Source of the DNA: Candidatus Woesearchaeota archaeon
GTDB lineage: Archaea; Nanobdellota; Nanobdellia; Woesearchaeales; GW2011-AR9
Assembly: GCA_013204355.1 (NCBI GenBank)
Contig: JABMOA010000039.1
Span: 1-34,668 of the forward strand
Length of the DNA stretch: 34,668 nt
Direction of reading: 5' to 3'
Both the position numbers and the translations under genes were made by a program. The notes below the pieces were generated by a model. That model made no database searches. It had not been told where the DNA came from and worked only from the letters and a program-made list of their open reading frames with translations. Each line of letters opens with the position of its first letter. The stretch's first letter is position 1. This document shows, piece by piece, positions 14,431-34,668 of the stretch.

Positions 14431-17400
14431 ATGGGAACAAAAAAAAGAGATGTGTTAGTTGTAATTTTATTCTTATTTTTTCTAGTTTTAATTTCATCAG
14501 TTACGGCTGCAGAAGAGTGTATTCTTTTTGGTTCTTTAAGTTCTAGTGGGATTGACGATAATTTATACTGTCAACCGTATGATGCTTCAGCTAAAACCTT
14601 GTGTGATAAAGATGCCAATTGCGATGAAAAAAAACATGTTATTCCACAAGAATGTTCATCTCTTTCACAATGTCAACAAGTAATTTGTAATACCGCACAG
14701 ACAGGTTGTGAATTAAATACACCTCAAGGGTTATGTGCACAAATTAAAGGAACCGTTGTTGCACCTCAAAATCAAGTTTTAGAATGCACACAAGGATGTT
14801 GTCAGATTGAACATAGTGGTGGCGATTTTTGTCAATTTGGTTCTAATAAGTATCAATGCGATCAAAAAGTTAAGACTTTACAGAATGGTGTTCTGAAAAA
14901 ATTTGATGCAACTTCCGGTATGAACGTTGACAAATGTAATCAACTTTATTGTAAAGTAGAAATTCAACAAGCAACCCTTGAAGGGTCTGTTGTGGATGAA
15001 CAAGGTCAACCAATTGTTCTTGCAACAGTATCATTAGAAGGAAAAAATGTTCAAACAACAACTGCATCTGATTGTACATATAAATTTGAGAAACTTAATG
15101 CAGGGTCATATACAATTCGTGCATCAGCTTCTGGCTACTTAACTTCAACCATTACACTTAATTTAGGTGCAGGAAAAACTATATCTCAAAAATTTATTTT
15201 GAAAGAAGCAAAAAATCTTGTACAATTAAAAGGAAAAGTAATGGATGTAGATAAGAAAATTCTTGCAGATGCAACATTAATCTATAGTGGTCCTTCAAAA
15301 GGTCAAGTGATTTCAAATGTACAAGGTGTTTATGAAGTTCAACTTACGCCAGGAGAATATTCTTTTGCTGTAAGTAAGAAAGGATTCCAAACTTCAAGTT
15401 CACAAGTTGTTCTCAAAGAAGGAACACAAGAAAAAGATTTCACTTTACAAGTTTCATTATTACAAGGTGTGAAAGGAACCACATATCTTGATACTAATAG
15501 TAATGGCCAATTAGATAAGGATGATAAACCTGCATATGGTGCTAAAATTTATATTGATGGTGTTTTTAGAGGGTTTTCTCAACCTCCATATGGAGAATAC
15601 CAATTTGATGTCACTTCTGGAACAAGCCATATTATCACCGGATCTTTTCAAGATTTCGAAGCAATCCCTTTAACATTTCAAATTAAAGAAAAAGAAGGTT
15701 TAATTAGAAATTTACTTCTTACAACAGCAGAAGGAGAATGTTCCGCGGAAGGAAATGAAAAAGAACCTCTTGACTTTTTTATAGCGCCAGTTCAAGGAAA
15801 AGAAGAACTTCAATTAAATTGGAAAAAACCTTGTAAAGAAGTTTTGGGTTATAAAATTACACGAGTACATGGTGAAAAAGAAGAAGCACTGTTTGAGGCA
15901 TCCCCTTTAGATGAAATTTTTATTGACACTGGTGTAACATGGAACGAACAATATAGTTATAAAATTATTGCATTATATAGTAAAGATCGTCAATCTAAAC
16001 CTATCCAATCTGCATTATTATCTCCTGGGAATGAAGTATGTGGTGGAAAATATGATCAAACTGTTAAAAAATGGAAATCATTTTGTCAAGTTGAAAATCG
16101 AAAAACAGTTTTTACCTGTAATGCACAAAATCAATTAGTACAATCCTTAGATTGTGGCAGTCAGGGTCAAACATTTTTCTGCGCGCCACTCAATGAAAAC
16201 GTTGCTGAATGTAAGAGTGCAGGGTTATGTACTGCAGGCGCATCACCTTTTGGGTTATTTGCAAGTAGAGATGTTTGTTATGGTGGAAAATCTGTGGAAA
16301 ATGCAGAAAACTTTTGTTATTATGATTATTCAAATTCAATATCTAATCAATGTAGTAGTTGTACAAAAGTAGATTCTTGTTTTGATTACCGAAGTCAAGA
16401 TGCGTGTGAAATTAATAATTGTGTGTCTTCTGCATGTGATTGGGTAGATGTTGCACAAAATACACAACTGATTGATTATGGTTTAATTGGATTACCAACA
16501 ACTGTTACAAAAGAAACAGGTTCAGGATATTGTGCCCCTCAAAATTATCAGAAAGATGATTCATGTAGTTTATGTGGAAGTGCAGCAGATTTATTTGAAA
16601 ATGCATTTTGTACTGCAGAAGTATGTTCTGCGTTAGGTGCATGTTTTTCTACAAAAGGATTAACTGATTGTTCTTCTTGTGGTGAAGTGCCTACAACTGT
16701 TGCGAATTGTTATACTTATGGATCTCAATTAGAATGTTCAGGTAATGAAGGGAGTGACCAATGTGCGTGGAACAGTTGTTCATGGTTAGGAAATAAAGAT
16801 GGAGGTAGTTGTGTCAAAGATTCTGATAAAGATCAGAAAGACGATTGCGATAATTTCATTGGCGCGGAAGCAATTTCTTGTAGGGTTGATAACTCCGCAC
16901 CTGAAACAGTTCTTGAAGGTTCACATTCAATTTCGCTCGCAAAACCAACGTTAACATTTATTTCAGATGATTCAAAACATCAATATGCCAGTCAACAAAA
17001 CGTTTTAGGAATCTTTGGGTATTGTTTAGATTCCACTGATCCAAATGCGCCAAGTAGTTGCATTGATCAAGATGGTAAGGATGCATTTATTGAAGTTCCT
17101 TTCCCTGGAAATGCTAACAAAGAAACAATTGTTGTAAGTGTCTTAGATTCATTAAAAGATAAAGTAGTAAATGGTCAAAATTATGTTTTAAAATATTATG
17201 CAGAAGATAAATATGGGAACCGTGAAGATACAAAAGAAATTTTTATTTTTGTAGATAATGTAGCTCCAGAATTTGAAATTTCGGAAGATATTCAAACTAC
17301 AGATAGTTCAACAGATTTAGAAGTATTTTTACAAGGGATGAATGAACCAATGAGTTGTGAATTTGTCTTAACACAAGTTCTTCCTTCGGGTGAACAATCA

Positions 17401-20400
17401 AAAATTACACTTGGACAAGATATTCAACAGAAAATAGTATTATATCAAGAATTGACAGGGATAAAATATGCCTTAGATGTTTCATGTACTGATAATTCAG
17501 GTAATGCACAGAAGAAAACCAAAGAATTTACATTTGATTTAGAGCCAACAATAGATATTGTGGAGCCACCTTTATTTGGGGTTGTATCTTCCGAAGATAT
17601 TATTTTTAAAGCAAGAACGCAAGTGGGTGCAACTTGTGAATTATTTTCTTTTGAATCCAGTTTATGGGTGAAGAAAGCAGATTTCATTACCGATGAAACA
17701 GGAAAGGAACATCAAACAACAAGTATCAAAGTCTCTGGTGAACGAACATATGCGGCAGAACATAAAATTGTGTGTAAAGAATTATATGCGCAGAAAGAAT
17801 ATGAAGATTATTATCATTTCACGGTAGATTTCACACCTTCTGCTGTCCAGGCAGTCGTTAAAGAAGAAACACGTGAGGAACGATTTTTAGGAACAAATTG
17901 GGAAACAACCTTTGTAAAATCACCAAGTCTAAGTTTTGAATGTAAAGATGCAGCATGTGAAAAAATATTTTATTGTATGGGCACTTCTTGTTCTGTAGTT
18001 CCATCAAACCAGTATCAAGAATATAATACAGAATTAAAATTAGATAAAAGCACACATGTGTGTTATTATGGTGTTGATAAAGTTTTAAACCAACCGACGT
18101 TTGCAGATTGTGGGGATATTTTTATTGAAGGATATGGTATAGAATTAAAAAATCCTGTTGCACATTATTTTGGTGTGGAACAATGGGGGATTTCTAAAGA
18201 ACCTGTTTTTGATGTCATGTTCACAACAAAAGTTCCAACCAAGGAATGTAGATATGATACAAATAGTAATTTCAAATATCATGAGGCTCCAGGATTTAAA
18301 GTATTAAAACCTAATGCCCAAAATGAATATACAATTGAAAAATTCCCTGAAAGTAGTGGAGGATCAGCATTTTCATCTGGTTCAGTGAAAAAGTTATATG
18401 TCCTTTGTCAAAATAAAGAAGGAAGTATAGGGCCTGAGCAAGAATTATTTTTATCTTATGATAACTCTAACCCTAAAGCACAAAACTTTGTGGGAAGCCC
18501 AAACCCTCTCATTGAAGGGACCAAGGTTGTATTAAGTATTAACACAGATGATAAAACCTTATGTAAATTTAGTGATAAAGGTCATGACACTTATGAATTA
18601 ATGAATTATGCATTTCCTGGTGCAGAATCTGATTTACCTGGAGTTAAATCTAGTTATAAAAGGAAGTTGCACGAAACTCATTATGTGCCTTATTATGTCA
18701 ATAATTTTCAAGGTTTAAAGAATACGATTGAATTAACATCAATGTGTAAAAATGCTGCAGGTGTTTTTTCAGAATTACAAAAATTAACATTGAATATAGA
18801 TTATACTTTGCAAGGAGGTATCACAAAAATAACGCCTCAAGACTCATATATTAATACAGATGCTGTACTAATTCGTGTAGAAACAAGTAAAAATGGATTC
18901 TGTAAAATTAAACAAGATAATAATCTTATAACAATGCAAGGGTCTGGGGGAAGAGTTCACACGTTTAATGTGCCTTCAGTTCTTGGCAGTCACCAATTTC
19001 CTATTGTATGTACCATGGGGGAACATCAAGTTGAAGGAAAAGCGTCTTATACATTAGATAAAACAAAACCAATTATTTCAAAAGTTAATGCAGGATTATA
19101 TTCTTGTGGTAAATCTGAAATTACTGTGTATCCTGTTGTTAATGAAAATATTAGTGCATTTTTCTATGAAGTATATAGTAAATCCGGCGTACAGGAAATT
19201 CCTGAAAATGCAACGAGCTTTTCATTTGGTAAGAAAACGCCTAGTTCAACAAATTTAGGAACACTTATTTCTCAAGGGTCTACAGATGGTTCTAAAGTAA
19301 TTAAAGTTCCTGCTGGGAATTTAACATTAGGCGAAACCTATCAGATTAAAGTAAAGGCTGTTGATTTAGCAGGTAACGAAGGGGACTTTACAGTTAGTTC
19401 AGGTGTTTCCATCACCAATGGTACTGAATCTGTGTGTCAAAGTACAAAAAAACCAGGCGTTGAAGTTCTTAAAACGGAAACCTGTAAAGAAACGCAATTT
19501 GTATTAGAATGTAATTCTCTTGTTGGATGTGGAGATATTAATTACGATGTAAGTACTTCTGTAACTGGATGTGTACCTAATTCCACATATACGGGAGTTC
19601 CGCTTTCTGTTTCAGAAACCAATGTTGTGTGTTATTATGCGATTGATAATATAGGGAATGAATTCAAGGGAACACATACAGTAACCTTTGGTGATGCAGA
19701 TGGTGATGGCATCTCAGATTCTTGTCCTGATACATGTGCAAATACACAGAAAGGAAAAGTTGCAGATAATGAAGGATGTTCTGCAGAGCAAACGCCTGAA
19801 GGTCAAAAGAAGGATACAGATGGCGATGGCTTATATGATTTATTTGAACAAACTTATACTAGGACTGATGGGAGTTGTGTGTTAGACTATTTAGCTAAGG
19901 ATTCAGATTTAAATGGAGAGCCAGATGGTTCTGAAGATTATGATGGTGACGGTTTTTCAAATTTCCAAGAACAAACACAATTACAAGACCCTTGTCAAGC
20001 TGACACTATTAAAGAATCTAATGAAGATTCTAATTTCCCTGTGATTCCAAGTGCACCTTTAAATGATGATACAAATGTGTTAGCATGGGTATTCCTAATT
20101 GTTGGATTACTTGCAATGATTGGAAGTGCAGGATATTTAGTATATTATTATAAGTATGCTCCTCAAAAAAGGGGGGTAGCAGGGGGAAGTGGAACTATTT
20201 CACATCCTGGACAAAAACCGGCTTTGGGAACACGTCCACAACAACCAAGTATATTTCAAGATTTATTTAGAGGACGTCAAAAAGCAAGTCGTGACCTTAA
20301 ACACAAATCCTTATTTGGAGATTTCACAAAGGAGTCTAAAGAAATCCCACACCTAGGTAATCTTTTGAAAGGAAGTGGAAATCATCAAGAAAGGGTTAAT

Positions 20401-20598
20401 GATCTTGCGCAGAAATATGCTACACATAAAGATGAAATTAAACCAGGACTTAAAAAAGAAGAAAAAGGGATTTTTGGGAAATTAGAAAGTATTGCAAAAC
20501 AAACAAAAGATAAAAAAATTAATGATGTTGTCGGTAAGGATGAAGCAAAAGATATTTTTGCAAAATTAAAATCAATTACTAAAAAGAGGAAACAATGA
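14431..20598 (+). CDS. Giant (2055 aa) multidomain surface protein, membrane anchored with cytosolic tail
   Basis: Signal MGTKKRDVLVVILFLFFLVLISSVTAAE; Cys domain; tandem carboxypeptidase-regulatory-like domains (LEGSVVDEQGQPIVLATVSLEGK..., QLKGKVMDVDKKILADATL...); FN3-like region; Asp-rich repeats DADGDGISDSCPDTC / DTDGDGLYDLFE / DYDGDGFSNFQE; TM VLAWVFLIVGLLAMIGSAGYLVYYY; basic tail. Confidence 0.88.
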   Translation: MGTKKRDVLVVILFLFFLVLISSVTAAEECILFGSLSSSGIDDNLYCQPYDASAKTLCDKDANCDEKKHVIPQECSSLSQCQQVICNTAQTGCELNTPQGLCAQIKGTVVAPQNQVLECTQGCCQIEHSGGDFCQFGSNKYQCDQKVKTLQNGVLKKFDATSGMNVDKCNQLYCKVEIQQATLEGSVVDEQGQPIVLATVSLEGKNVQTTTASDCTYKFEKLNAGSYTIRASASGYLTSTITLNLGAGKTISQKFILKEAKNLVQLKGKVMDVDKKILADATLIYSGPSKGQVISNVQGVYEVQLTPGEYSFAVSKKGFQTSSSQVVLKEGTQEKDFTLQVSLLQGVKGTTYLDTNSNGQLDKDDKPAYGAKIYIDGVFRGFSQPPYGEYQFDVTSGTSHIITGSFQDFEAIPLTFQIKEKEGLIRNLLLTTAEGECSAEGNEKEPLDFFIAPVQGKEELQLNWKKPCKEVLGYKITRVHGEKEEALFEASPLDEIFIDTGVTWNEQYSYKIIALYSKDRQSKPIQSALLSPGNEVCGGKYDQTVKKWKSFCQVENRKTVFTCNAQNQLVQSLDCGSQGQTFFCAPLNENVAECKSAGLCTAGASPFGLFASRDVCYGGKSVENAENFCYYDYSNSISNQCSSCTKVDSCFDYRSQDACEINNCVSSACDWVDVAQNTQLIDYGLIGLPTTVTKETGSGYCAPQNYQKDDSCSLCGSAADLFENAFCTAEVCSALGACFSTKGLTDCSSCGEVPTTVANCYTYGSQLECSGNEGSDQCAWNSCSWLGNKDGGSCVKDSDKDQKDDCDNFIGAEAISCRVDNSAPETVLEGSHSISLAKPTLTFISDDSKHQYASQQNVLGIFGYCLDSTDPNAPSSCIDQDGKDAFIEVPFPGNANKETIVVSVLDSLKDKVVNGQNYVLKYYAEDKYGNREDTKEIFIFVDNVAPEFEISEDIQTTDSSTDLEVFLQGMNEPMSCEFVLTQVLPSGEQSKITLGQDIQQKIVLYQELTGIKYALDVSCTDNSGNAQKKTKEFTFDLEPTIDIVEPPLFGVVSSEDIIFKARTQVGATCELFSFESSLWVKKADFITDETGKEHQTTSIKVSGERTYAAEHKIVCKELYAQKEYEDYYHFTVDFTPSAVQAVVKEETREERFLGTNWETTFVKSPSLSFECKDAACEKIFYCMGTSCSVVPSNQYQEYNTELKLDKSTHVCYYGVDKVLNQPTFADCGDIFIEGYGIELKNPVAHYFGVEQWGISKEPVFDVMFTTKVPTKECRYDTNSNFKYHEAPGFKVLKPNAQNEYTIEKFPESSGGSAFSSGSVKKLYVLCQNKEGSIGPEQELFLSYDNSNPKAQNFVGSPNPLIEGTKVVLSINTDDKTLCKFSDKGHDTYELMNYAFPGAESDLPGVKSSYKRKLHETHYVPYYVNNFQGLKNTIELTSMCKNAAGVFSELQKLTLNIDYTLQGGITKITPQDSYINTDAVLIRVETSKNGFCKIKQDNNLITMQGSGGRVHTFNVPSVLGSHQFPIVCTMGEHQVEGKASYTLDKTKPIISKVNAGLYSCGKSEITVYPVVNENISAFFYEVYSKSGVQEIPENATSFSFGKKTPSSTNLGTLISQGSTDGSKVIKVPAGNLTLGETYQIKVKAVDLAGNEGDFTVSSGVSITNGTESVCQSTKKPGVEVLKTETCKETQFVLECNSLVGCGDINYDVSTSVTGCVPNSTYTGVPLSVSETNVVCYYAIDNIGNEFKGTHTVTFGDADGDGISDSCPDTCANTQKGKVADNEGCSAEQTPEGQKKDTDGDGLYDLFEQTYTRTDGSCVLDYLAKDSDLNGEPDGSEDYDGDGFSNFQEQTQLQDPCQADTIKESNEDSNFPVIPSAPLNDDTNVLAWVFLIVGLLAMIGSAGYLVYYYKYAPQKRGVAGGSGTISHPGQKPALGTRPQQPSIFQDLFRGRQKASRDLKHKSLFGDFTKESKEIPHLGNLLKGSGNHQERVNDLAQKYATHKDEIKPGLKKEEKGIFGKLESIAKQTKDKKINDVVGKDEAKDIFAKLKSITKKRKQ

Positions 20599-21101
20599 AC
20601 AAAAAAGGTCTTGCTGTAAATCAGGTGTTTGTATTTATGATTGCGGGTTTAATTTTTGCATTAATTATGATTTTTGGTTATCAAGCAATCACAGGTTTTA
20701 TTGATACAAGTGAAGATGTTTTGTTTACAAAATTTAAGACAACTATTGAATCAGATGTACAAAAGATTCATACTGACTTTGGTTCTATCAGAAAGAAAAC
20801 GTACACTTTACCTTCAACATATGAAGAAGTATGTTTTGTGAATATGGATAAACCTTATTCTCAAGAATGTAACATTGGATTGTTAGCATGCGATACATGG
20901 AAAACATCTGAAGGATACAAAAGTGTAGATCAAAATGTGTTCTTAAAACCATCAGCTTCTACCATTAAAGTTGCACCAATTACATTAACTGATGTAGAAG
21001 ATAAACCATTAGATTTCTTATGTGTTAAAACTGTAAACGGTGGTTTTACAATAATCTTAGAAGGGAAAGGGGACCATGCGGTGATTTCACCAACATCGTA
21101 A
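20595..21101 (+). CDS. Pilin-like class III signal protein
   Basis: MNKKGLAVNQVFVFMIAGLIFALIMIFGYQ; 4-bp overlap with the giant gene stop. Confidence 0.75.
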   Translation: MNKKGLAVNQVFVFMIAGLIFALIMIFGYQAITGFIDTSEDVLFTKFKTTIESDVQKIHTDFGSIRKKTYTLPSTYEEVCFVNMDKPYSQECNIGLLACDTWKTSEGYKSVDQNVFLKPSASTIKVAPITLTDVEDKPLDFLCVKTVNGGFTIILEGKGDHAVISPTS

Positions 21102-21102
21102 A

Positions 21103-22236
21103 ATGGCGCATAAAGGGCAAGTTCAAATTACTGTAAATTGGATTTATATTGTCATTGCTGGCGCAGTCATTTTATTGTTCTTTGCAGGTTTAGTTGTGAA
21201 AGGAAAAGATGCAGCTGAAAAAAATATTGCAGAAGATGTTGTCCAAGTCATGGGGAATATATTTACAGGAGCTGGCGTTTCTGAAAAAACAAAGAATCGT
21301 ATTGAAACAAGTGGCCTTGCAGAATTTACATTTCAATTTACATGTACAGAAGGTGTAAGCACATTCGGGATTAAAGATAAAACTAATTCTGTACAAGATA
21401 CAACGCAGCCTACATTTTCACCTGAAGAAATAAAATCCACAAGGTTGTTATTATGGAGTCTCCCCTATAAATTACCTTATAAAATTGTAGATTTATTATT
21501 TGTTACATCTATTAATACAAAATATTTTTTGATTGCTTTTGACGATATTGATTTTGTTAATGAGTTTGATACTGCAACGGATGATTCAGATAAAACCATG
21601 AAAATCAATTGGCAATCTATCACTTCATTAGAAGATATTGACCCCCAAGGAAATTTTCAAATAAGGATTGTAGATTTAGATGGTATTTATGTTAAGAATA
21701 ACGAAGAAGTCCCTGAAAAAGTACAATCATTAGAAAATGAAAAAGTAACGGCAGTGACGTTCCTTTCAGGAAACTTAGTCCAGTATTATCAAAAGCAAGG
21801 AATTATATGGGCTAAAAAAGGAAAACCTGTAGAAATTGTTTCATTAGGCGGAAAGAGGGATGCCGCAAAATACGCTGCAATTTTTGCACAAGATGGATCC
21901 CAATATAATTGTAATATGCTTAAAGCTTTCAAGAGGTTAAGTTTAGTTAATCAAGTATATCAAGGGAAGTTGAAAGATTTACAGACTTATTATACTGAAA
22001 ATTCCCAATTATCATTAACGAAAGCAAACTGTTATGGTTTAACAGGTGTTGAAGGTTATGCATTTGAACAGAACTTAAAAAATGAAATGGATGCTTATCA
22101 AAACAAAATTGAAACTTGTGTCTTTGAATCAAAGGAAGGTTTAGATTCAACATCATGTCAAGATTTTGTAGGTTTGGCAAGTGCGCTAAGTAATATCAAT
22201 CAACAATTGCAATCGGAATGTATTCCATTATATTGA
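21103..22236 (+). CDS. Pilin-like class III signal protein
   Basis: MAHKGQVQITVNWIYIVIAGAVILLFFAGLVV. Confidence 0.75.
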   Translation: MAHKGQVQITVNWIYIVIAGAVILLFFAGLVVKGKDAAEKNIAEDVVQVMGNIFTGAGVSEKTKNRIETSGLAEFTFQFTCTEGVSTFGIKDKTNSVQDTTQPTFSPEEIKSTRLLLWSLPYKLPYKIVDLLFVTSINTKYFLIAFDDIDFVNEFDTATDDSDKTMKINWQSITSLEDIDPQGNFQIRIVDLDGIYVKNNEEVPEKVQSLENEKVTAVTFLSGNLVQYYQKQGIIWAKKGKPVEIVSLGGKRDAAKYAAIFAQDGSQYNCNMLKAFKRLSLVNQVYQGKLKDLQTYYTENSQLSLTKANCYGLTGVEGYAFEQNLKNEMDAYQNKIETCVFESKEGLDSTSCQDFVGLASALSNINQQLQSECIPLY

Positions 22237-22253
22237 GAGATATAAATATTAAA

Positions 22254-22793
22254 ATGAAATTAGGAAGAAAAAAACAACAAAAATCAAAGATTTTTGAGCT
22301 TTCTCAATCGAGAAAGGGACAGGTACAAATGACTGAAACTATTGCAGTACTTTTCATATTCTTTGTGTTGATTGTTTTTGGCATTTCATTTTTTTATCAA
22401 TATGCACAATCTTCATATAGAGCAGAACAAGAACAATTACTTGGGAAACGTGCAATTGAAACAACTCTGAAAGCATTATTTATCCCTGAATTGATGTGTA
22501 CCAAAGGTGATGCGGAAGCAGAAGATAATTGTTTTGATATGATGAAAGTACGTCATGCGATTGAAATATTTAATGAAAGTAAATTAGTTTATTTTGATAC
22601 TTTTTCGTTTTCTAAAATTAGTCTAACTGAAATTTATCCTGGCAATGAAACTTTTGTATTATATGATTTCCCTAAAAATGAATGGGAAAATTCAGAAAAA
22701 ACATTTTTTATCATTGCAATGAAAGATGAAACAAAAGGTGAAGGCCAGCCACATTTTGGTCTTGGAAGATTAGATATTGAGGTGTATTCATGA
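22254..22793 (+). CDS. Pilin-like class III signal protein
   Basis: SRKGQVQMTETIAVLFIFFVLIVFGISFFYQ; ATG at 22254 favoured over 22218, which overlaps the upstream gene. Confidence 0.75.
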   Translation: MKLGRKKQQKSKIFELSQSRKGQVQMTETIAVLFIFFVLIVFGISFFYQYAQSSYRAEQEQLLGKRAIETTLKALFIPELMCTKGDAEAEDNCFDMMKVRHAIEIFNESKLVYFDTFSFSKISLTEIYPGNETFVLYDFPKNEWENSEKTFFIIAMKDETKGEGQPHFGLGRLDIEVYS

Positions 22794-23332
22794 AAAAAGG
22801 ACAGATGGAAATCATCGGCCTTGTTGTCATCGTGATCTTAATCTCGTTAGGAATGTTATTTATGGCTGTGTTTGCGTTGAGTTCTGATTCGTCTAAAAAA
22901 ACATTTACACGGAAAGGATTAGCTTCAAGTACAGTTAGTGGTATTTTAAAATTAAATGTAGGGGCTGAATGTCCTGGACAAGGTTCTCCTCAATTAGGAG
23001 GTGATATTTTAGAAGATTGTGCGATTTATTTTGGTTATAAAGAAGATTCTGCGAGTTCCATTTATCAATGTCGTGAGAAACATAGTTGTGATTTTTTCAG
23101 AGAAATTTCTAATGAAATCTTGAATGGAACTTTGGGTGAACAGGAAAAAAAATATGAATTTACAGTTCATCTCATTGAACAGAAAGGTGCTACACCTAAA
23201 GATTTAATTGAAATAATCAAGAATAAAGGTGGATGTCCCAAAGCCACAATTTCTAATCAAGATAGTTCTAAACCATTTCCGCTGCAAACAGATGCAGGGT
23301 TAGTAGAAGTTGAGTTGAAAATTTGTGATTAG
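22790..23332 (+). CDS. Pilin-like class III signal protein
   Basis: MKKGQMEIIGLVVIVILISLGMLFMAVFAL; ATGA overlap with upstream stop. Confidence 0.78.
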   Translation: MKKGQMEIIGLVVIVILISLGMLFMAVFALSSDSSKKTFTRKGLASSTVSGILKLNVGAECPGQGSPQLGGDILEDCAIYFGYKEDSASSIYQCREKHSCDFFREISNEILNGTLGEQEKKYEFTVHLIEQKGATPKDLIEIIKNKGGCPKATISNQDSSKPFPLQTDAGLVEVELKICD

Positions 23333-23333
23333 T

Positions 23334-25385
23334 TTATTTACAAGTTAGTTTGATGTAATTCAAGGCACATTTCCCTTGAAAACTAGTTGGTTCACATATA
23401 ATTTTTATTGGTTGATTATAGAACTCACAAGGTTCACTAGAGGTACATGAAGGAATTTTATCTCCTATCAAAGAACCATTATCATAAACTTCAAATATAT
23501 TTTTTCCTGCGATAATTTTTGTTTGATGAGAAATATCAGTGGAAAATGAACCTTCAATATAAGCAAAACCATAGATAGAGGTTCCATTACTTGAACTAAA
23601 ACTAATTTTTCCTGAACCCGAGGAAGAAGGTAACCCATATAATATAGTCATTTTACTATCCTTATAAATCCATTCAAATTCTAAGGTCACTTCCCCATTG
23701 CATGTAAATTTATTTTTTGTTTCCATTGATGAAAGTGTTTTTGGTTTCATTGTGATTGAACCAAGGCTTGTATTAATTGTTCCTCCATTAGTGAAAAGAT
23801 TCCAATTAGAAGCAAAATTATTTCCAAACCCCTCATAAAATAATTCCTTACTTTGTGGCTTACTCTCACACGTTCCATTATTACATGTATCTCCACTATA
23901 ACAACTTTCTATCTTCCATTCTAAACAATTATCTGTATCGTAATCTCCACACGTTTTTATTTTTGTAGAAGATTCACAGGCTGTTTGTCCTTTAGTGTTA
24001 CATTCATTTGTGCATGTTGGATTTACTATAGAATCTACACAGGCCCCATCTTTACAGGTCTTCCCAGAGCCACAACTTGTTAATTTCCATTCTAGGCAAT
24101 CATCTTTATCATAATTTCCACATGTGTTAATTGAATTTCCATAACATACTGTTTTTCCTTCATACGAACAAATATCTTCACAATTACCCGTATCTTCAAC
24201 ACAAATTAACTTTTCTGGACTACAAACATCACCAGATTCACAAGTCACCGTTGTTTTGTAAATACACCCCCCTTGGGATGGTCTTTTACAGATTTCAACA
24301 ATAGTGTCACTAAGGCATTGTTTGCCTTCATAACTACATTCATCCACACAAGTATTTCCATTACAATCACTATCTTGTTTATCAATTAAACCATCACAGT
24401 CGTTGTCAATGCTATCATAACAATCTTCAGAAGGGATGGAGGTTAAACATTTGTAGTTGTGTAATTCTGCGGCGGCCATGACATTGATGTTTTGTGATTT
24501 GAATGTATCTATATTGTGCCATGTTTTATAAGCTTTACACTCGTCTGGTTGAATGATTCCTTCCGCAACAAGACCTTGGTAAAGATCATAGGGGATATCA
24601 AGTATTGCTTTTTTTGTGTAGGTTAGGATTTTTTTTGTATCACTTCCCACTTTAGGGGTTAAATCTACAAGATCAATCACAGCTGTAATTCTTTTATCTT
24701 GCGCTAACCATACATCTTTTGGAAGAAGGCAACCAATTTCTGTACTCGTTTTTTGTTGGTGTTGAGAATATTTTATTGCAGCATCTAATGAATCGAAATT
24801 TGTATTTTGTGTATATGCATATGTTTTTTCTGCTACGGTGCCTAATGTGTTCCAGTCTAAATCTTTTGCACTGTTATGTTCAAAAATATGGAAGTAAGGT
24901 TCTCCTTGAAAATCTCCATGGAAGACTTCAAATCCATCTCCATCTTCAAATACAATATAGGCATTTGCTAAAGAAATCCCATTTTTTCGTGCAAATACAT
25001 TTACGGTTTCATTACTTTGAGAATCCCAGAAATTAATACGTCCTTGTGCATTTGTAAACCCGGAACTTACAGGAATCCCACCCACAGTATGTGTTTCAAC
25101 TTTTGATTTTTGATTTCCATCAACAACACATTCTAATGATTCGCATATTTGACTAGGAGGACAATCAGAATCGGTGTCGCATGAATTACCTGTACAATAT
25201 GATTCATTTGTTTCAGCTTGTGCACAGATGTAGGGTGCGTTGCAATCATTGTCAACATCACATGATGTCTGAGTAGAACAACCAAAGGCCGTGGCTCCTA
25301 GTAATGCCAATCCCGATAATTTCAATGAGATATTATTTCGTACACTTTGAAGAAATGATTTTTCTGTGACTGATTCTAATGACAT
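23334..25385 (-). CDS. Secreted/lipoprotein-like Cys-rich repeat protein, inverted relative to the locus
   Basis: Signal-like LKLSGLALLGATAFGCS; SCDVDNDCNAPYIC; EDCYDSIDNDCDGLIDKQDSDC (MopE-like motif); three about 56-aa Cys repeats; beta-rich C-terminal domain. Confidence 0.8.
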   Translation of the reverse strand: MSLESVTEKSFLQSVRNNISLKLSGLALLGATAFGCSTQTSCDVDNDCNAPYICAQAETNESYCTGNSCDTDSDCPPSQICESLECVVDGNQKSKVETHTVGGIPVSSGFTNAQGRINFWDSQSNETVNVFARKNGISLANAYIVFEDGDGFEVFHGDFQGEPYFHIFEHNSAKDLDWNTLGTVAEKTYAYTQNTNFDSLDAAIKYSQHQQKTSTEIGCLLPKDVWLAQDKRITAVIDLVDLTPKVGSDTKKILTYTKKAILDIPYDLYQGLVAEGIIQPDECKAYKTWHNIDTFKSQNINVMAAAELHNYKCLTSIPSEDCYDSIDNDCDGLIDKQDSDCNGNTCVDECSYEGKQCLSDTIVEICKRPSQGGCIYKTTVTCESGDVCSPEKLICVEDTGNCEDICSYEGKTVCYGNSINTCGNYDKDDCLEWKLTSCGSGKTCKDGACVDSIVNPTCTNECNTKGQTACESSTKIKTCGDYDTDNCLEWKIESCYSGDTCNNGTCESKPQSKELFYEGFGNNFASNWNLFTNGGTINTSLGSITMKPKTLSSMETKNKFTCNGEVTLEFEWIYKDSKMTILYGLPSSSGSGKISFSSSNGTSIYGFAYIEGSFSTDISHQTKIIAGKNIFEVYDNGSLIGDKIPSCTSSEPCEFYNQPIKIICEPTSFQGKCALNYIKLTCK
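23853..24350 (-). repeat. Three tandem about 56-aa Cys-rich protein repeats
   Basis: CVDECSYEGKQCLSDTIVEICKRPSQGGCIYKTTVTCESGDVCSPEKLICV / CEDICSYEGKTVCYGNSINTCGNYDKDDCLEWKLTSCGSGKTCKDGACV / CTNECNTKGQTACESSTKIKTCGDYDTDNCLEWKIESCYSGDTCNNGTC. Confidence 0.8.
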
Positions 25386-25492
25386 AGTTCTTTTTAGGCG
25401 TTGTTTTATTTAAATATTACTCTTATTTTTGGTGAAACTTACGTAAGGTTTATATACATACTTTGTCTTCTTTTATGAAGATGTTTATACTG

Positions 25493-25530
25493 AACGTTAA
25501 ATAAAATTTAAGATAATTCAATTTAACGTT
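25493..25530. repeat. 10-bp perfect inverted repeat AACGTTAAAT-N18-ATTTAACGTT
   Basis: Arms 25493-25502 and 25521-25530 in the intergenic region between divergent genes. Confidence 0.7.
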
Positions 25531-25540
25531 TGTACATACC

Positions 25541-25569
25541 AACAAAAAGTTATAAAAAAACTTTTTGTT
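25541..25569. promoter_or_regulatory. 11-bp perfect inverted repeat enclosing a TATA-like element
   Basis: AACAAAAAGTT (25541-25551) ATAAAAA AACTTTTTGTT (25559-25569); contains TTATAAAA; 30 bp upstream of the ATG at 25599. Confidence 0.65.
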
Positions 25570-25598
25570 TAGTATATATTAAAATGAGGTGAACAAAG

Positions 25599-25961
25599 AT
25601 GGTATTAAATAAAAAAGGGCAAGGGCTTTCTTTAAATGTAATTATAATTGCAGCTTTAGCATTGATTGTATTAGTTGTATTAGCGGTAATTTTCACAAGC
25701 TCTTCAGCAGATTTTGCAGATAAGAGTGATAATGTTGCTGGCGATTCAAAATTGAAATTAACAACATTATCATTAACATATGGTGATTGTCAACCTTCAG
25801 GAAGTGCTGAATCAACATTTATGAATGCATATTCGGCAGCTCAAAGCACAGATGATAAAGATAACGCGGTTTCAAACTTCAAGACCGAAATTACCAGATG
25901 TAAAGATTTTAGTGCAGACAAATTAACGTGCGAAGGTAACTCTGGTTGTCTTTGGGGATAA
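25599..25961 (+). CDS. Pilin-like class III signal protein (candidate major subunit)
   Basis: MVLNKKGQGLSLNVIIIAALALIVLVVLAVIF; strong GAGGTGA ribosome-binding site; short Cys-containing ectodomain. Confidence 0.8.
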   Translation: MVLNKKGQGLSLNVIIIAALALIVLVVLAVIFTSSSADFADKSDNVAGDSKLKLTTLSLTYGDCQPSGSAESTFMNAYSAAQSTDDKDNAVSNFKTEITRCKDFSADKLTCEGNSGCLWG

Positions 25962-25964
25962 ATC

Positions 25965-26228
25965 ATGAACCAAAAAGGTGGGGCTAACATGTGGTGGATT
26001 ATCATTGGTGCAGTTCTTGCACTAGTTGTGTTAGTTGTTCTTGTCTTCATGTTTACCGATAATACAGATCGTGTTAAGGTAGGTTTGAGTGCGTGTTTTG
26101 GTGGAGACTGTAAACCTAAAGGAGAATGCACAGGGAGTATTAATAAAGCTGTAGAATGTTCAGGAAACACAGAAAGTAATCCAATTGTCTGTTGTGTTGG
26201 TAGTGACAAAAAAATTACTACCACATAA
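25965..26228 (+). CDS. Pilin-like class III signal protein
   Basis: MNQKGGANMWWIIIGAVLALVVLVVLVFMF plus short Cys ectodomain. Confidence 0.72.
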   Translation: MNQKGGANMWWIIIGAVLALVVLVVLVFMFTDNTDRVKVGLSACFGGDCKPKGECTGSINKAVECSGNTESNPIVCCVGSDKKITTT

Positions 26229-26271
26229 AATGATCTCTTCTTTTTTTTCTTTATTGAATAATAGGAGAGCA

Positions 26272-26379
26272 ATGAGTACATCAACAATATCTTTGATTGT
26301 CGCTATAATGATCGCTTTGATTGTTTTCATTGTTTTCATTGCCGGTCTCAAAGGAAAATTTGATTTAATAGGTCCATGA
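26272..26379 (+). CDS. 35-aa hydrophobic pilin-like miniprotein
   Basis: MSTSTISLIVAIMIALIVFIVFIAGLKGKFDLIGP; AGGAGA RBS just upstream; stop overlaps next ATG (ATGA). Confidence 0.6.
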   Translation: MSTSTISLIVAIMIALIVFIVFIAGLKGKFDLIGP

Positions 26380-26546
26380 AATTTAACAAATATAAATTCC
26401 TTCCACAAGGGAAGAAGGGAATGGAGATGAAATTAATTGTTACTCTTATTATTTTACTCATTCTCTTAATCCTTGCAACAATATTATGGCAAACAATTGG
26501 GTCCGAATCAGATACTTTGCTTGGTGGGTTAAAGAATTTATTATAA
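26376..26546 (+). CDS. 56-aa pilin-like miniprotein (missed in ORF track)
   Basis: MKFNKYKFLPQGKKGMEMKLIVTLIILLILLILATILWQTIGSESDTLLGGLKNLL; ATGA overlap with 26379 stop. Confidence 0.65.
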   Translation: MKFNKYKFLPQGKKGMEMKLIVTLIILLILLILATILWQTIGSESDTLLGGLKNLL

Positions 26547-26547
26547 C

Positions 26548-27327
26548 ATGGGATATGCAACTAAATTAGTGTTTTATATTATACCTCTTATTTTACTAAT
26601 TGTTGTTGTGTTTATATTTTTTGGTCAAGGTGGAGCATGGGAAGATTTGAAAGATGTAATTTCAGATGCTAAGACTGTTGCACCAGATCTCACTTTTGGG
26701 GAAAATACTCTTAATGCGAGTGAGATTATTACCCCTGCGCATCACGCTGTTAAGATTAAAGAGTTAGTTAAAATAATTAACGAAACAATGTTAAAAAAAG
26801 GCAACGACAATTGTTTTGTAAAAGGGCCGGTATTTGACGATTTTAGAGATGGGGATGAAAGGACATCCATTTCTTTTGTGCGTGTTTCAAATACGGAATC
26901 AAAATTAGTGGTACGTAGTGGTGCAGGTGGAAAACAAATTGATACAACATTACAAGATAAATTTGAAAACCTGGTTCCTTGTGTTATTGGAGGAAGTAAA
27001 GAGATTACGACAAATTTTGTTGCACGTTTCTTTGATAAAACATCTTCAAATCCAGGAAATTATTTTATGCCAGTTGGTGCTGTAACCTTGTCCTATAAAT
27101 TTGGTGCAACAACATCAGATGGTAATGGCATTTCCGTAGCAGATTTTCCTGAAGAAAAGAATCCAATTAATGATGAAGGGGATAATATGGAAAATAATGG
27201 GTGGCTATTTACGCCCGATGGAAAAAATATTTGTTTTTTCCCCACAAATAAAGCAGTAAATGCAGACGATGATGGTATCGATAACGATTATTTTGATAAT
27301 TTACAAGGTGTGAAAATATGTTCATGA
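26548..27327 (+). CDS. Membrane-anchored pilin-like/ectodomain protein
   Basis: MGYATKLVFYIIPLILLIVVVFIFFGQ then about 230-aa soluble domain. Confidence 0.7.
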   Translation: MGYATKLVFYIIPLILLIVVVFIFFGQGGAWEDLKDVISDAKTVAPDLTFGENTLNASEIITPAHHAVKIKELVKIINETMLKKGNDNCFVKGPVFDDFRDGDERTSISFVRVSNTESKLVVRSGAGGKQIDTTLQDKFENLVPCVIGGSKEITTNFVARFFDKTSSNPGNYFMPVGAVTLSYKFGATTSDGNGISVADFPEEKNPINDEGDNMENNGWLFTPDGKNICFFPTNKAVNADDDGIDNDYFDNLQGVKICS

Positions 27328-28508
27328 ATAAAAAAGGAATTACAGCGGGATTTATTGTAAGTATTATGATTACAATGATCGCATTTATTGTTATTTCAGG
27401 AGTATTATTAAGATTTACAAATCAAGGCGATGATTTTGAAGCGGAATTATTATGCAAACAAAGCATTGCATTACGAGTTGCGACAACAGTGAAAATAGGG
27501 AGCGAAGATAGTTGGGGAATCAAAGCAAAACTAAAATCTGTTCCCGCTTTATGTAGGACAATAGATAAAAGAACAACCGGAAACCGCGAAAAAATCAAGA
27601 AAGAAGTTGCAGATTCTATGGCACGATGTTGGGAAATGTTTGGTGAAGGGAAGTATGAAGAATTATTACATAGTTCTGATTTCTCTGTAATCCCCGCAGT
27701 CTTTGATTTTGGTGAAACAGATAATAAATGTTTTAATTGTTATACTATCAATATTGCACAAGATGATATTAAAGGTGGCCCAATTATGGCCGGAGAAATG
27801 GAGGATTATTTGACCACTCATAAATATAAAAACAAAGGTAAAACCTATTTGGATTATATTCAAACTTATGGTGGCCCAGGACGAGTTGTGTTTACTGTGC
27901 CTGCGATTTTACCTCGTGAAGGATATGCAATTTCTATGATGCCTAAGAATAGAGAAGTAGGTGACGGAGAAGCGTGGAAAGGCGTTGGTAAGATTGTTGT
28001 TGGTGTGGTTATTGTGGGTGTTGCTGTTTTAGTAACAGGAGTTGTTGTTGCATGTGTTATTGGTACTGCAGGACTTTGTGCTGCACCTGCTGTTGCCACT
28101 GCTGCCGCCGCTGAAGCTGCAACAGTTGCCACTGCAGCGGCAGCGACATCTACGGCAGTAACAGCTTCAGGAGCTTCCGCAACAGCAATTGTTACAGCTG
28201 CCGCTGAAGCATCTGCTGCTGCTGTTGCTGCCGAAACTGCTATCGCCGCTGCAACTGCGTCATCAGGTATTTTAGGATCGGGAGGAGCAGCGCTTGCTGG
28301 GGCAGGTCTTACTACCAAAGTAGCAGTAGTTGCAGGCGCAGCTAAACTAGGGACAGGTACACTTTTAACAGGTGGAGCGATGGCTTATAGTGGTGGAAAA
28401 AGTGTTTTAACCACATTTTACGGAGAACGTGATGTTAGTTCAATTTACTTAGGAAATTTACAAATTGCACAAGAAATGTGTGGTTCGGGAGATATTGCTG
28501 GTGAATAA
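27324..28508 (+). CDS. Pilin-like protein with Ala/Gly-rich hydrophobic C-terminal domain
   Basis: MNKKGITAGFIVSIMITMIAFIVISGVLL; C-terminal ATAAAAEAATVATAAAATSTAVTASG... segment. ATG at 27324 overlaps the upstream TGA. Confidence 0.75.
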   Translation: MNKKGITAGFIVSIMITMIAFIVISGVLLRFTNQGDDFEAELLCKQSIALRVATTVKIGSEDSWGIKAKLKSVPALCRTIDKRTTGNREKIKKEVADSMARCWEMFGEGKYEELLHSSDFSVIPAVFDFGETDNKCFNCYTINIAQDDIKGGPIMAGEMEDYLTTHKYKNKGKTYLDYIQTYGGPGRVVFTVPAILPREGYAISMMPKNREVGDGEAWKGVGKIVVGVVIVGVAVLVTGVVVACVIGTAGLCAAPAVATAAAAEAATVATAAAATSTAVTASGASATAIVTAAAEASAAAVAAETAIAAATASSGILGSGGAALAGAGLTTKVAVVAGAAKLGTGTLLTGGAMAYSGGKSVLTTFYGERDVSSIYLGNLQIAQEMCGSGDIAGE

Positions 28509-29366
28509 GAAAGGTGAAATGATGTGGAAATTAATCACGTTAGTTCTTGCTATTGTGATTTTAGTAGTTATAGTTGGTGCGTTTTTCCCAAGTCTTTTTA
28601 GTTCTGGTGATATTATAAAAACACAAATTGGAGGGATTGATGCGGATCCTGATTGTGATGATATTAAAGGAGCAGCCGATGAGTGCCCCTGCACTTCTGG
28701 CGATTATGTATCAGTTTATAGAGGATGTCCTGCTGAATTCACATTAGAACTAAAGAATGCAGATAAGCATAAATATAATACAGATACTGCTTGTGGACTT
28801 ATTAATCCTTGTGGAAAAATTAATTCAGAAGAAGAAGAAGGCGGTACTTTTACACGTACACCAGAAGAACAAGCATTACCTCATTTCAGATCCTTAGAGA
28901 TTTTGCACAAGATGATGATGCTTCTAAACAAGGAATAGTTAGGCAAGCCTGTTTAGCATGGGTAGGAGATACACAAGCAAATTGTCCAACTGAAGGTAAT
29001 GATTGTGATGACGATGAATATGCATATCAACCATTAACCGTTAATTGTTGGATTATGGCAAGCGAGCAGGATGCCGGATTAGATCAAAATGATTGTGGTC
29101 AGAAACAATTTGCAGATGGTACAATCATTTCAGAATCCACATATTCCAATATTGATGCATCAGCAGTTCAAACATCTTATCATTCTGTAGATGGTGAAGA
29201 CGATCCTAAAATACTTTTTACCTACAAATGGAAAGCGCCACAGGAATCTGGCTCTCTTTTATGTAATAAGGGATTCTGGGTTGGTTGTGGTGGTGGAAAT
29301 GCAGCAACAATTAAAGTCAATGGCCAAGATTATGAATGTAAAAATCAAGAGTGGACTAAAAAATGA
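28501..29366 (+). pseudogene. Pilin-like class III signal protein split by an apparent 1-nt frameshift
   Basis: GTG at 28501 gives MNKKGEMMWKLITLVLAIVILVVIVGAFF; frame ends at 28938, but frame 0 is open 28824-29366 and continues as QILRDFAQDDDASKQGIVRQACLAWVGDTQANCPTEGNDCDDDEYAYQPLTVNCWIMASEQDAG... Confidence 0.7.
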
Positions 29367-30064
29367 ACCATAAAATCAAACAAGAATCTAAAGGGGTTTT
29401 AATTTTTCCAGATCGTAAAGGAATTATGGTGAAATTTTTAGTGACCTTACTTCTTGCCATTATTATTTTTGTTCCTTCTTGCATATTCGTTAACAAAATA
29501 TTGGATGCGGGCACAAGATCTAGCGAACAAGCAAAGGATAATTTTGTTGATTTCATTAAAGAATTAAATGAATTTGCATTTGATGAAGAAAAAATTGCAG
29601 GATCTCGTTCTAGTACCCAATTAATCTTAGATAAAGAAACTGCGATAGTATATTATGAAAAAGATAAACCTAAAGTTGAAGTTGCAATAGATCCCAAAGG
29701 TACTTCTCTTGGCGTTGATATTGACATGACAATTCAAAAACCAGCCGTATGTAAGGAAGGGAAAAATTGTATTTGTTTATTACGGAAATCAGAGTTTGAA
29801 ATTTCTAGATTGTCAAGGACTATTGATGTGAAACCAAAACGGTTTCTTTGTGAAAATTTAGATTACGAACTTCAGATTGACACTTGTAATATTGGCGAAC
29901 CACATTTAGTTGAATCCTATACTTGTAAAAATGGATTCTTGATTGAACGTAAGCTTGTTGCAGGTTCTTCTAGTGATTCAGTAAATTATTTTGAAGTCCA
30001 ACGGAGATCCACGATTTTCATGTTAAAAGAAGCAAATTCTATTAGAATTACAGGGGTGTCATAA
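29363..30064 (+). CDS. Pilin-like class III signal protein
   Basis: FPDRKGIMVKFLVTLLLAIIIFVPSCIFV; ATGA overlap with upstream stop. Confidence 0.72.
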   Translation: MNHKIKQESKGVLIFPDRKGIMVKFLVTLLLAIIIFVPSCIFVNKILDAGTRSSEQAKDNFVDFIKELNEFAFDEEKIAGSRSSTQLILDKETAIVYYEKDKPKVEVAIDPKGTSLGVDIDMTIQKPAVCKEGKNCICLLRKSEFEISRLSRTIDVKPKRFLCENLDYELQIDTCNIGEPHLVESYTCKNGFLIERKLVAGSSSDSVNYFEVQRRSTIFMLKEANSIRITGVS

Positions 30065-30462
30065 TGTTTTCACAGAAAAAAGGGAACAGTGCGCTTATGC
30101 TCATGTTTGAAATTATTATTGTAGGGTTAGTTGTATTTATGGCGTTTAGTATTGCTGAAAAATTTGCAACATCTCAAACATCTAATAAATATAATTTAGC
30201 AAATGATTTTGGATTAATGGTCAATACGTTAGTTGCGTCTCCAGGTCATGCAATCGTAAATTATCCAGGAGATTTAACTCCGTTTAATATTGTACTAAAA
30301 CAAAATTATGTAGAAATCTGGGAAGCTGAAGGGTCAAAATCAACAATTAAAAAAATGTTTGATGTACCCATAGGATATAAATTATCTGGATTCACAGAAA
30401 AACAGAAAGATGTTTGTTTAGAAAAAACGTTGGACCGAGAAATAAAATTAAGGAAATGTTAA
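30064..30462 (+). CDS. Pilin-like class III signal protein
   Basis: MFSQKKGNSALMLMFEIIIVGLVVFMAFSIAEKF. Confidence 0.72.
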   Translation: MFSQKKGNSALMLMFEIIIVGLVVFMAFSIAEKFATSQTSNKYNLANDFGLMVNTLVASPGHAIVNYPGDLTPFNIVLKQNYVEIWEAEGSKSTIKKMFDVPIGYKLSGFTEKQKDVCLEKTLDREIKLRKC

Positions 30463-30924
30463 ATGGTATTTGATGCAACAAGAAAATCATTGTACTGGAT
30501 GATGGCAGGAATCGTAATTACTATGACAATATTTGGGTTTGCAATGATTTTGTCTATGTTTCAAAATAGTCAATTAGCAACACCAGAAGAATTTGAAGCT
30601 GAAATAATTGCATTACGATTTACACAATCAGAAGATTGTTTTGCATATAAAGATCTAAAAACAGGGAGAGTGTTTCCAAGTGTCATAGACCCACTTAAAT
30701 TAAATAAAGATCAACTTCAAAGATGCTATCAAACATCTACAAGTGCAAAAGGATTAAAAGATTTTAATTTTGGGGTGGAAGTAGATGGATTTACACAAAC
30801 ACCCTTAATGACCAACAATTTCATCCTTAATAGAGTCAAATTTGAACTTCCAAAAAAGAAAGTTTTTGTAAAAAATGGAGATCAATTCATAGAAACACAA
30901 ATGAAGGTATCTATTAGCAGATGA
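30463..30924 (+). CDS. Small single-TM, pilin-like protein
   Basis: MVFDATRKSLYWMMAGIVITMTIFGFAMILSMF. Confidence 0.68.
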   Translation: MVFDATRKSLYWMMAGIVITMTIFGFAMILSMFQNSQLATPEEFEAEIIALRFTQSEDCFAYKDLKTGRVFPSVIDPLKLNKDQLQRCYQTSTSAKGLKDFNFGVEVDGFTQTPLMTNNFILNRVKFELPKKKVFVKNGDQFIETQMKVSISR

Positions 30925-31409
30925 GATTATTCAAAGATAAAAAAGGATTCGTGGACGATATGATGGATTTTATATTCATGACGGTTTTATTAGTTCTCGG
31001 ACTGATGTTGATTGGAGGTGTTCTTTATTTTAATGTTAGTGACAATAAGGATGCTACTATGAAAAAAGTAAATTTTGTTGAAACCACACAAACTCATTTG
31101 TATTATTTAAATTCTGCAACAAAATTAAATAGCGTGCAAACAACTATAAGCGATGTTATTATTTATGCGTTTAATAAAAATGACCAGGCTTTATTTGAAG
31201 CAAAAACAAATTCGTTTTTTAACAAATATAATTTAGAAGGTGCAGTTGACGTGTACGATTCTAATGAATATAATCAAGATCGTGATTATAAACTGTCTTT
31301 TAGTAATAGATTTATTTCAAGTGGGGAAACAAAATCTGTCCTACAATTAGCTAATCCTACAAATAACAATGTTCCTTCAATTACGGTGGTGTTTAAGAAA
31401 AATGAATAA
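30921..31409 (+). CDS. Pilin-like class III signal protein
   Basis: MRLFKDKKGFVDDMMDFIFMTVLLVLGLMLIGGVLYF. Confidence 0.72.
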   Translation: MRLFKDKKGFVDDMMDFIFMTVLLVLGLMLIGGVLYFNVSDNKDATMKKVNFVETTQTHLYYLNSATKLNSVQTTISDVIIYAFNKNDQALFEAKTNSFFNKYNLEGAVDVYDSNEYNQDRDYKLSFSNRFISSGETKSVLQLANPTNNNVPSITVVFKKNE

Positions 31410-32136
31410 GAAAGCAAGCGTATTTCATTGGATTCCACTTTTTTTGATTGGTGCATTTGTATTTTTTATGGTTATGTCAAATAGTGTTAATGTAAGTGTA
31501 AAAGAAAAAGGTGAATGGCAAACCTCCTTTTTACAGGATTTTGTATATCAAGGTGAGGTTGAATTACATAAATTAGATCAGAACGCACTTGTAGTTGCTC
31601 GTAAGAGCACATTACAATTAGCATCTAATGGGGGATATCACAAAGATTCTCCCTGCGGAAAAACGTTTGGATTAAATAAGTTAGGATTACAATGTTTTCC
31701 AAAAGTTGATAAAGAATTTAGTTTAGTTTTCAATGAATTGTTTGAAGGAGATACTTTTGATGTTTTTATTGAAGGGCAAGAAGTTCGTGGAAAAGGTGAA
31801 AAAATGCTTAAAGTAACTTCTCTGAATCCGAAATATGCACAATCACTTTATGAGTTACAAGGAAATTTTCATATTTCTTTAGGATATAGTTTTAATGAAT
31901 ACGATATATTAAAATCGGATTTACTTGAAATTTTACAAAAATGTAATCAAAACAGCGATTTGAATGTTTGTCTTGATCAACATAAAAAAGTAAACTGGAA
32001 ATATTCAGAGTGTGGGTCCAACCAATATAAATCTGAAGGGAGAACTGTTCCTTTTTGTGTTGAAGGAAGTAAAATATTAGATGAATTTGGAAATGCAGCA
32101 GATGTTGAATATAAATTTGCAGTAGATTTTCCTTAA
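31402..32136 (+). CDS. Pilin-like / single-TM anchored protein closing the locus
   Basis: ATG at 31402: MNKKASVFHWIPLFLIGAFVFFMVMSNSV; overlaps upstream stop (AATGAATAA). Confidence 0.7.
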   Translation: MNKKASVFHWIPLFLIGAFVFFMVMSNSVNVSVKEKGEWQTSFLQDFVYQGEVELHKLDQNALVVARKSTLQLASNGGYHKDSPCGKTFGLNKLGLQCFPKVDKEFSLVFNELFEGDTFDVFIEGQEVRGKGEKMLKVTSLNPKYAQSLYELQGNFHISLGYSFNEYDILKSDLLEILQKCNQNSDLNVCLDQHKKVNWKYSECGSNQYKSEGRTVPFCVEGSKILDEFGNAADVEYKFAVDFP

Positions 32137-33270: not shown

Positions 33271-34668
33271 ATGGTTAGGTCAAAACTAGATAGATTTGTA
33301 CAAGTTTTAATTCCACCCTCTTTAATTTTATTGTTGACTTTTACTATTATAGAACTGTTTTATAATTTACCAGGTTGGTTTGTTTTTACTTTAGAACTTT
33401 TTGATGCATACGTGATTATTATTTTTGCAATTGACTTATATTATCGGTGGTTTGAAACACCTAAATTTGTTCCTTATGTTAAAAAACATTGGTTAGATAT
33501 TATTGCAACGATTCCGTTCCCTTTTATTTTCTGGGGAGTAGAAGGATTAGCATTATTACAGGGGTTGAAAGGGATAAGACTATTAGCACGTGCCGCAAGA
33601 GCTTTGAAAGCGGCTCGTTTGACAAAATTATCAAGAATGATTAGATTGATAAGATTTGGAACGAGGGCTCCTCGGATTGCACGGTTAAAAGGACAAGTTA
33701 AAGAAGGTAAAATCCGGAAAGTACAACCTCACGAGAAAACAATGAAAGGTGTGCTTAGTTTCAAAGTTATTCTTTTAATTACAATTAATTCAATTATGGG
33801 GACAGGGATTTGGTTTCTTACTTCGGCTGGAGCTAAGTATGCTGGTCCAGCATCATTAATTTCTTGGGTTATTCTTGCGTTAATTGCAATTTATATTTCC
33901 ATGTGTTTTGGAGAATTAGTAAGTATGTTTCCTAAAGCAGGTGGTGTTTATGAATTTGGAAAACAAGCATATGGTCGGTTTGCATCCTTTGTCATTGGAT
34001 GGACAACGTCTATTGCAGGTTCTGTGACCATCGCAATGTTAATATTAGGTGCATTACAATATCTTCTTCCAAATAGTCCTCAATATTATATCCCTGCCGC
34101 AATTGCCTTAATTCTTGCATTTAGTTATGTTGCATTTAGGGGAATGGACACGTCCACTTATGTGTTAGTTACCTTTTCATTAATTACGTTAACAGCCGTC
34201 ATTGGTATTATTATTCCTGGATTGTTTAACTTTAACCCTTCAAATATGTCTCCCTTCTTTGTATTTCCAACAATGAGTATCGCACTTGCAATCTTTTTTA
34301 TTGCAGAAACTTTTTTTGGATGGGAATCAGCAATCTTCTTAGCTGCAGAAACAAAAAACCCCTCAAAAGTGATGCCTCGTGCATTAATAACTGGTACAAT
34401 TGTGATTGCAGTTTTAGCATTTCTTCTTGCGTTTACAGCAATGGGCACAATTCCATGGGAAAAATTTTCTGAATCTGCAGCACCTTTACGTGATTTAGGA
34501 GTTGCACATTTCGGACAATTAGGAGGGCTTATTTTTTCATTGCTCATTTTCGTTTCTGTGATTGGCGCAACGGCTGGATGGATTGTAACAGCTCCTAGAT
34601 TGTTAATGGCAATTGCAGAAGATAAATTATTTTTCACGCAATTTGCAAAAATACATCCAAAATATAAA
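33271..34668 (+). CDS. Voltage-sensor-like domain fused to APC-family amino-acid transporter (partial, runs off window)
   Basis: Continuous frame from ATG 33271 (GAGGT RBS): S3-like HWLDIIATIPF; S4-like RLLARAARALKAARLTKLSRMIRLIR; then APC motifs SIMGTGIWFLTSAG, FGELVSMFPKAGGVYEFGKQAYGRFASFVIGW. No stop in window, so absent from the ORF track. Confidence 0.85.
   Translation, partial: MVRSKLDRFVQVLIPPSLILLLTFTIIELFYNLPGWFVFTLELFDAYVIIIFAIDLYYRWFETPKFVPYVKKHWLDIIATIPFPFIFWGVEGLALLQGLKGIRLLARAARALKAARLTKLSRMIRLIRFGTRAPRIARLKGQVKEGKIRKVQPHEKTMKGVLSFKVILLITINSIMGTGIWFLTSAGAKYAGPASLISWVILALIAIYISMCFGELVSMFPKAGGVYEFGKQAYGRFASFVIGWTTSIAGSVTIAMLILGALQYLLPNSPQYYIPAAIALILAFSYVAFRGMDTSTYVLVTFSLITLTAVIGIIIPGLFNFNPSNMSPFFVFPTMSIALAIFFIAETFFGWESAIFLAAETKNPSKVMPRALITGTIVIAVLAFLLAFTAMGTIPWEKFSESAAPLRDLGVAHFGQLGGLIFSLLIFVSVIGATAGWIVTAPRLLMAIAEDKLFFTQFAKIHPKYK

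Follow-up and report, generated by a model that had tools for sequence, protein, structure and literature searches.

A voltage-sensor domain joined to an APC-family transporter core in a single reading frame of Woesearchaeota

Voltage-sensor domains (VSDs) have been described in channels, in phosphatases, in proton channels and in a single animal transporter. To our knowledge, the latter (SLC9C1 of animal sperm, which has a fold unrelated to the one described here) is the only transporter reported to be regulated by a VSD. The last gene of the DNA stretch that we analyzed (hereafter the window: 34,668 nucleotides, representing the entire contig C22 in the draft genome, 1.04 Mb in size, of a Candidatus Woesearchaeota archaeon) raises the question of whether a VSD may also control an amino-acid permease. 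According to an earlier note, made from the sequence alone, this gene contains one uninterrupted frame in which a VSD precedes a canonical APC transporter core.

The frame is indeed continuous: it begins with an ATG at 33271 and stays open up to the final base, 34668 (+ strand), with zero stops and 466 encoded amino acids. Because the contig ends exactly at 34668, the gene is truncated and lacks its 3' end; complete orthologues comprise about 757–793 residues. In the window protein, the VSD spans residues 1 to about 132 and is followed by a basic linker (residues 133–160; 33667–33750, +), presumably cytosolic, and then by the APC core, of which TM1 to about TM8 are encoded (33751–34668, +).

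In the transporter portion, the Pfam family AA_permease_2 matched residues 162–465 above its cut-off, with an E-value of 2.6e-31 (2.8e-42 in a complete orthologue), and the APC-superfamily signatures in TM1 (GTGI) and TM6 (FGWES) were intact in 25/25 fused proteins, in agreement with the canonical core described earlier. The nearest solved relatives are BasC, GkApcT, AdiC and LAT1. The fused proteins share the transporter core and the GTGI and FGWES motifs with BasC (1e-29), GkApcT, AdiC and SLC7, but these have neither a VSD nor a C-terminal methyltransferase domain. Moreover, where BasC has a lysine in TM5 (K154), the aligned residue of the window protein is a Thr.

Homologues split consistently into two genes would have pointed to an assembly artifact. 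When 99 related genomes were searched for the same architecture, as the earlier note had proposed, the homologues turned out to be fused rather than split: the VSD–APC frame was found in 19 genomes, including that of the window, in addition to some partial copies, and the relatives showed 63–91% identity. For a broader survey we used a 199-position profile covering the VSD, the linker and TM1, reading the counts from tables. This profile detected the full fusion in 27/362 genomes of one Woesearchaeota order, distributed over seven families (17/51 genomes in the family of the window), whereas among 382 genomes sampled from the phylum it found no fusion beyond this order. A single-frame fusion common to 27 genomes led us to reject an assembly join. 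We likewise rejected a split into two genes and a start codon inside the frame: the N termini of VSD-less paralogues resemble the fused protein from about residue 158, but a Met near that position is not conserved in the orthologues.

In a tree of the transporter core, all the fused proteins, including one copy truncated at a contig start, fell into one clade with a support of 100/100, so that the fusion would most simply have arisen once. In this clade the linker has a conserved motif, KIRKVQPHEK, which is missing from the VSD-less paralogues.

Is the N-terminal portion a genuine voltage sensor? When residues 1–159 were searched alone, the Pfam family Ion_trans gave an E-value of 1.7e-5 (1.3e-5 in a second search of the VSD), right at the curated cut-off, and the reversed VSD, used as a control, still matched Shaker weakly (E 0.15). 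Part of the single-sequence score must hence reflect composition, and we did not rely on single-sequence E-values. A profile built from 20 fused VSDs, searched against the PDB, returned voltage-gated channels only: the KvAP VSD ranked first (3.9e-6), followed by HCN channels (HCN1 6.5e-4), hERG, Kv1 and Kv2. The fused protein shares the S1–S4 module with KvAP, other voltage-gated K+ channels and HCN, but in these the module is followed by a pore and here by an APC transporter.

Structure prediction, based on an alignment of three sequences, offers weak support at most. The AlphaFold model of the whole protein (pLDDT 36) was discarded, while that of the VSD alone (pLDDT 58) had four helices, at residues 5–30, 35–62, 66–80 and 86–144. 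A Foldseek search with this low-confidence model ranked the KvAP VSD at the top, with a non-significant E-value of 0.083.

S1 (about residues 12–31; 33304–33363, +) carries the acidic residue E28, which is E in 23 and D in 4 of the 27 fused proteins. S2 (about residues 40–62; 33388–33456, +) contains D45, F52, D55 and R59, all invariant in 27/27, as are D7, P82, R135, K150 and H154. S3 (about residues 70–90; 33478–33540, +) does read WLDIIATIPF, as previously noted, and includes P82 as well as D76, which is conserved in 26 of the 27 proteins and replaced by E in the remaining one. The S2 arrangement F52-xx-D55, together with D76 in S3, fits a gating-charge transfer centre, which, by these residues, is complete in this VSD.

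In S4, together with the cytosolic stretch that extends it (about residues 95–132; 33553–33666, +), every third residue is basic. The nine Arg/Lys residues counted in the earlier note are R103, R107, R110, K113, R116, K119, R122, R125 and R128, that is, a first interval of 4 and then eight basic residues exactly three apart. Since a run of eight at spacing 3 was reached in only 21/100,000 shuffles of the 51-residue segment, composition alone is an unlikely cause of this periodicity. The spacing is retained by the orthologues, in which the basic residues of the S4 region vary from 9 to 12. The distance between the IPF motif of S3 and the PR motif after S4 was 38, 41, 44, 47 or 50 residues in 19/20 proteins (the sole exception being L005), although these 20 proteins are phylogenetically related and the three-step rule is to be read as a pattern, not as a probability. 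As the length of S4 shifts by whole three-residue units, the basic residues stay in register. HCN channels, too, possess a long S4 in which every third residue is basic.

The fused gene is under purifying selection. In two close pairs, dN/dS was about 0.07–0.10 for the VSD and 0.06–0.08 for S4, with the APC core being the most constrained region (0.02–0.04). These results bear on the idea that the N terminus is merely a vestigial or coincidental arginine-rich helix bundle, or the product of an assembly join, devoid of any voltage function. The weak match of the reversed VSD to Shaker and the borderline Ion_trans score speak in its favor, but the fusion recurs in 27 genomes, the profile finds VSDs only, the charge-transfer residues are invariant and dN/dS is low; we deem this explanation very improbable. 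The Pfam and PDB profile matches, the occurrence of the fusion in 27 genomes and the purifying selection confirm, as far as sequence can tell, the prediction that the frame encodes a VSD joined to an APC-family transporter core.

The complete orthologues, however, revealed a further component, which lies beyond the contig end and which a reader of the window could not have seen: the twelve-TM core is followed by a domain of about 170 residues. This domain matches methyltransferase families in the VSD-less paralogues and in some fused proteins (Methyltransf family matches were seen in L034 and L017). The glycine of SAM motif I, found as LE-x-G in the VSD-less proteins and expected of a class-I SAM methyltransferase, was kept in 24/24 VSD-less proteins and in 0/25 VSD-bearing ones; an acidic residue after beta-2 is also gone in many fused proteins. 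Because the fusion forms one clade, the loss of motif I counts as one correlated event rather than 25. We read the C-terminal domain of the fused clade, whose dN/dS is about 0.1, as probably catalytically dead. The VSD-less APC–methyltransferase paralogues of the same order (e.g., L022) belong to the same subfamily and share the C-terminal domain, with cores about 50–63% identical, but differ in lacking a VSD, in having motif I intact and in their TM1 motif, GTGIFFLP as opposed to GTGI[W/Y]FLT in the fused proteins.

APC transporters of this order with a C-terminal class-I methyltransferase and an intact SAM motif I are encoded at L022:1495-3387(+), L027, L030 and L035:3695-5575(+). One APC–methyltransferase protein, L075:839-3427(+), has an additional C-terminal match to DUF3108 (residues 683–796).

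The persistence of the methyltransferase fold after the loss of motif I, at a dN/dS of about 0.1, is what one would expect of a binding, non-catalytic domain. Together with the differing TM1 motif, it lends some credit to a transceptor, in which the APC core would bind an amino acid while transporting little, and the VSD and C-terminal domain would signal to cytosolic partners. We find this unlikely, given that constraint is strongest in the APC core, that its TM1 and TM6 motifs are canonical and that no partner gene is consistently linked to the fusion. The upstream neighbor of the fusion in the window resembles an RPA gene and a RadA-like gene follows the fusion in L033 (as judged from reading the translations), but we saw no functional link between the fusion and these neighbors. 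A PADLOC search gave no defence-system match.

VSD-like proteins also occur alone. Stand-alone VSD-like genes are more widely spread than the fusion, being found in other orders of the class, and often flank these transporters, though some occur in genomes where no transporter of the family was found. In the window's family, a VSD-like gene and a transporter lay within a few kb on one contig in 11/13 genomes holding both (hand count). Several such pairs are divergently adjacent, and in G161 and G162 the VSD-like gene is directly upstream of the fusion. Furthermore, both G005 and the genome of the window have an Ion_trans channel gene near a transporter paralogue. When two modules are found fused in a single chain and also encoded by neighboring genes, this is usually a sign of a functional link.

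The stand-alone proteins (L035:8385-9083(-), L036:6318-6944(-), L039:4908-5468(+), L045:3770-4285(+) and others) are mostly about 170–240 residues long, display F-xx-D and S3 WLD motifs and often adjoin APC genes; most of them have an insert near the sequence GQAILHESLEA, ahead of a short S4-like arginine array. Another VSD fusion is L079:357-1199(+), a protein of 280 residues in which an Ion_trans S1–S4 follows an unrelated, apparently multi-helix N-terminal membrane segment. L001:1339-2244(+) and L036:5297-6277(-), located near APC transporter or VSD-like genes, encode Ion_trans plus Ion_trans_2 channels that may carry a zinc-ribbon at the C terminus, the matches to which lay below the cut-off.

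That these genomes also encode VSD-like proteins standing alone, even where no transporter of this family was found, implies that the domain can occur without a pore. The fused VSD might accordingly be an accessory module, serving for membrane insertion, for oligomerization or as an Hv1-like proton or cation leak that feeds a proton-coupled permease. An anchor, though, would hardly need the conserved charge-transfer residues, S4 register and linker, and the Thr found in place of BasC K154 gives no support to a lysine-based proton coupling, so the odds seem to us to be well against such a role.

We lean instead towards a voltage-regulated amino-acid transporter, in which the membrane potential would gate transport via S4. 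Weighing against this reading are the low confidence of the AlphaFold models, the non-significant Foldseek match, the borderline Ion_trans score, the varying number of basic residues in the S4 region and the break of the three-step rule in L005. Both termini of the VSD, like the N terminus of the APC core, are expected to lie in the cytosol. Given that the joining segment is also strongly basic, this topology is consistent, and S4 would then continue through the linker into TM1a. In LeuT-fold transporters, TM1a is the helix that gates the cytosolic side and moves during the transport cycle. A change in membrane potential could hence move S4 and thereby lock or release TM1a, while the presumably dead methyltransferase domain might serve as a cytosolic brake or scaffold, like the intracellular helices of SLC9C1. 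A plausible use of this arrangement would be to permit uptake only in the energized cell, so that scavenged amino acids are kept when the membrane potential collapses. In its most specific form, this reading would make the protein a prokaryotic voltage-gated secondary transporter, with S4 coupled directly to TM1a of the LeuT-fold permease and the methyltransferase acting as a brake; we offer this form tentatively, as a possibility whose details may well prove wrong. If true, there would have been two or more origins of voltage gating among transporters, on folds unrelated to each other, and S4 would have been tuned in evolution by gain or loss of whole three-residue charge units. The natural series of S4 lengths, from 9 to 12 charges in one-unit steps, would represent a ready-made experiment on gating charge.

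A precedent is provided by SLC9C1, whose transporter is locked or released by a very long S4 (PMC10620092). Like SLC9C1, the archaeal protein combines a secondary transporter and a VSD in one chain, has a very long S4 and bears an extra cytosolic domain. The charge-transfer residues of SLC9C1, Y743, E746 and D767, are spaced exactly like F52, D55 and D76, with the same F-xx-D interval in S2 and the same 21 residues between the S2 and S3 acids (PMC13095418). However, SLC9C1 is an animal protein with an NhaA-fold transporter, a VSD placed after it and a CNBD, whereas here the VSD precedes a LeuT-fold APC transporter, the organism is an archaeon and a methyltransferase-like domain is found instead of the CNBD. 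The fusion may work like SLC9C1 but, judging from its domains, falls outside the SLC9C family. As for other VSDs free of a channel pore, that of Ci-VSP is joined to a phosphatase and Hv1 is by itself a proton channel.

We found no description of a VSD–APC or APC–methyltransferase fusion in the literature searched, which included few subscription journals. What is new here, by its predicted architecture, is a VSD-bearing transporter that differs from SLC9C1 in fold, domain of life and extra domain. Should it function as its domains suggest, it would add a second kind to the known VSD-controlled transporters, and the first from a prokaryote, offering a minimal prokaryotic system for how S4 drives a LeuT-fold transporter. 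The carriers are tiny, uncultured archaea, and the fusion suggests that archaea with small genomes may regulate nutrient uptake by membrane potential.

The remainder of the window presents two other features. Positions 5699–20598 encode, in tandem, very large proteins (1594, 846, 380 and 2055 residues) that are rich in cysteine and appear to be extracellular. A run of small proteins follows at 20595–32136, several of which start with MNKKG or similar and possess an N-terminal hydrophobic helix; upon reading, they resemble the pilin-like proteins of archaea or those with a class III signal peptide.
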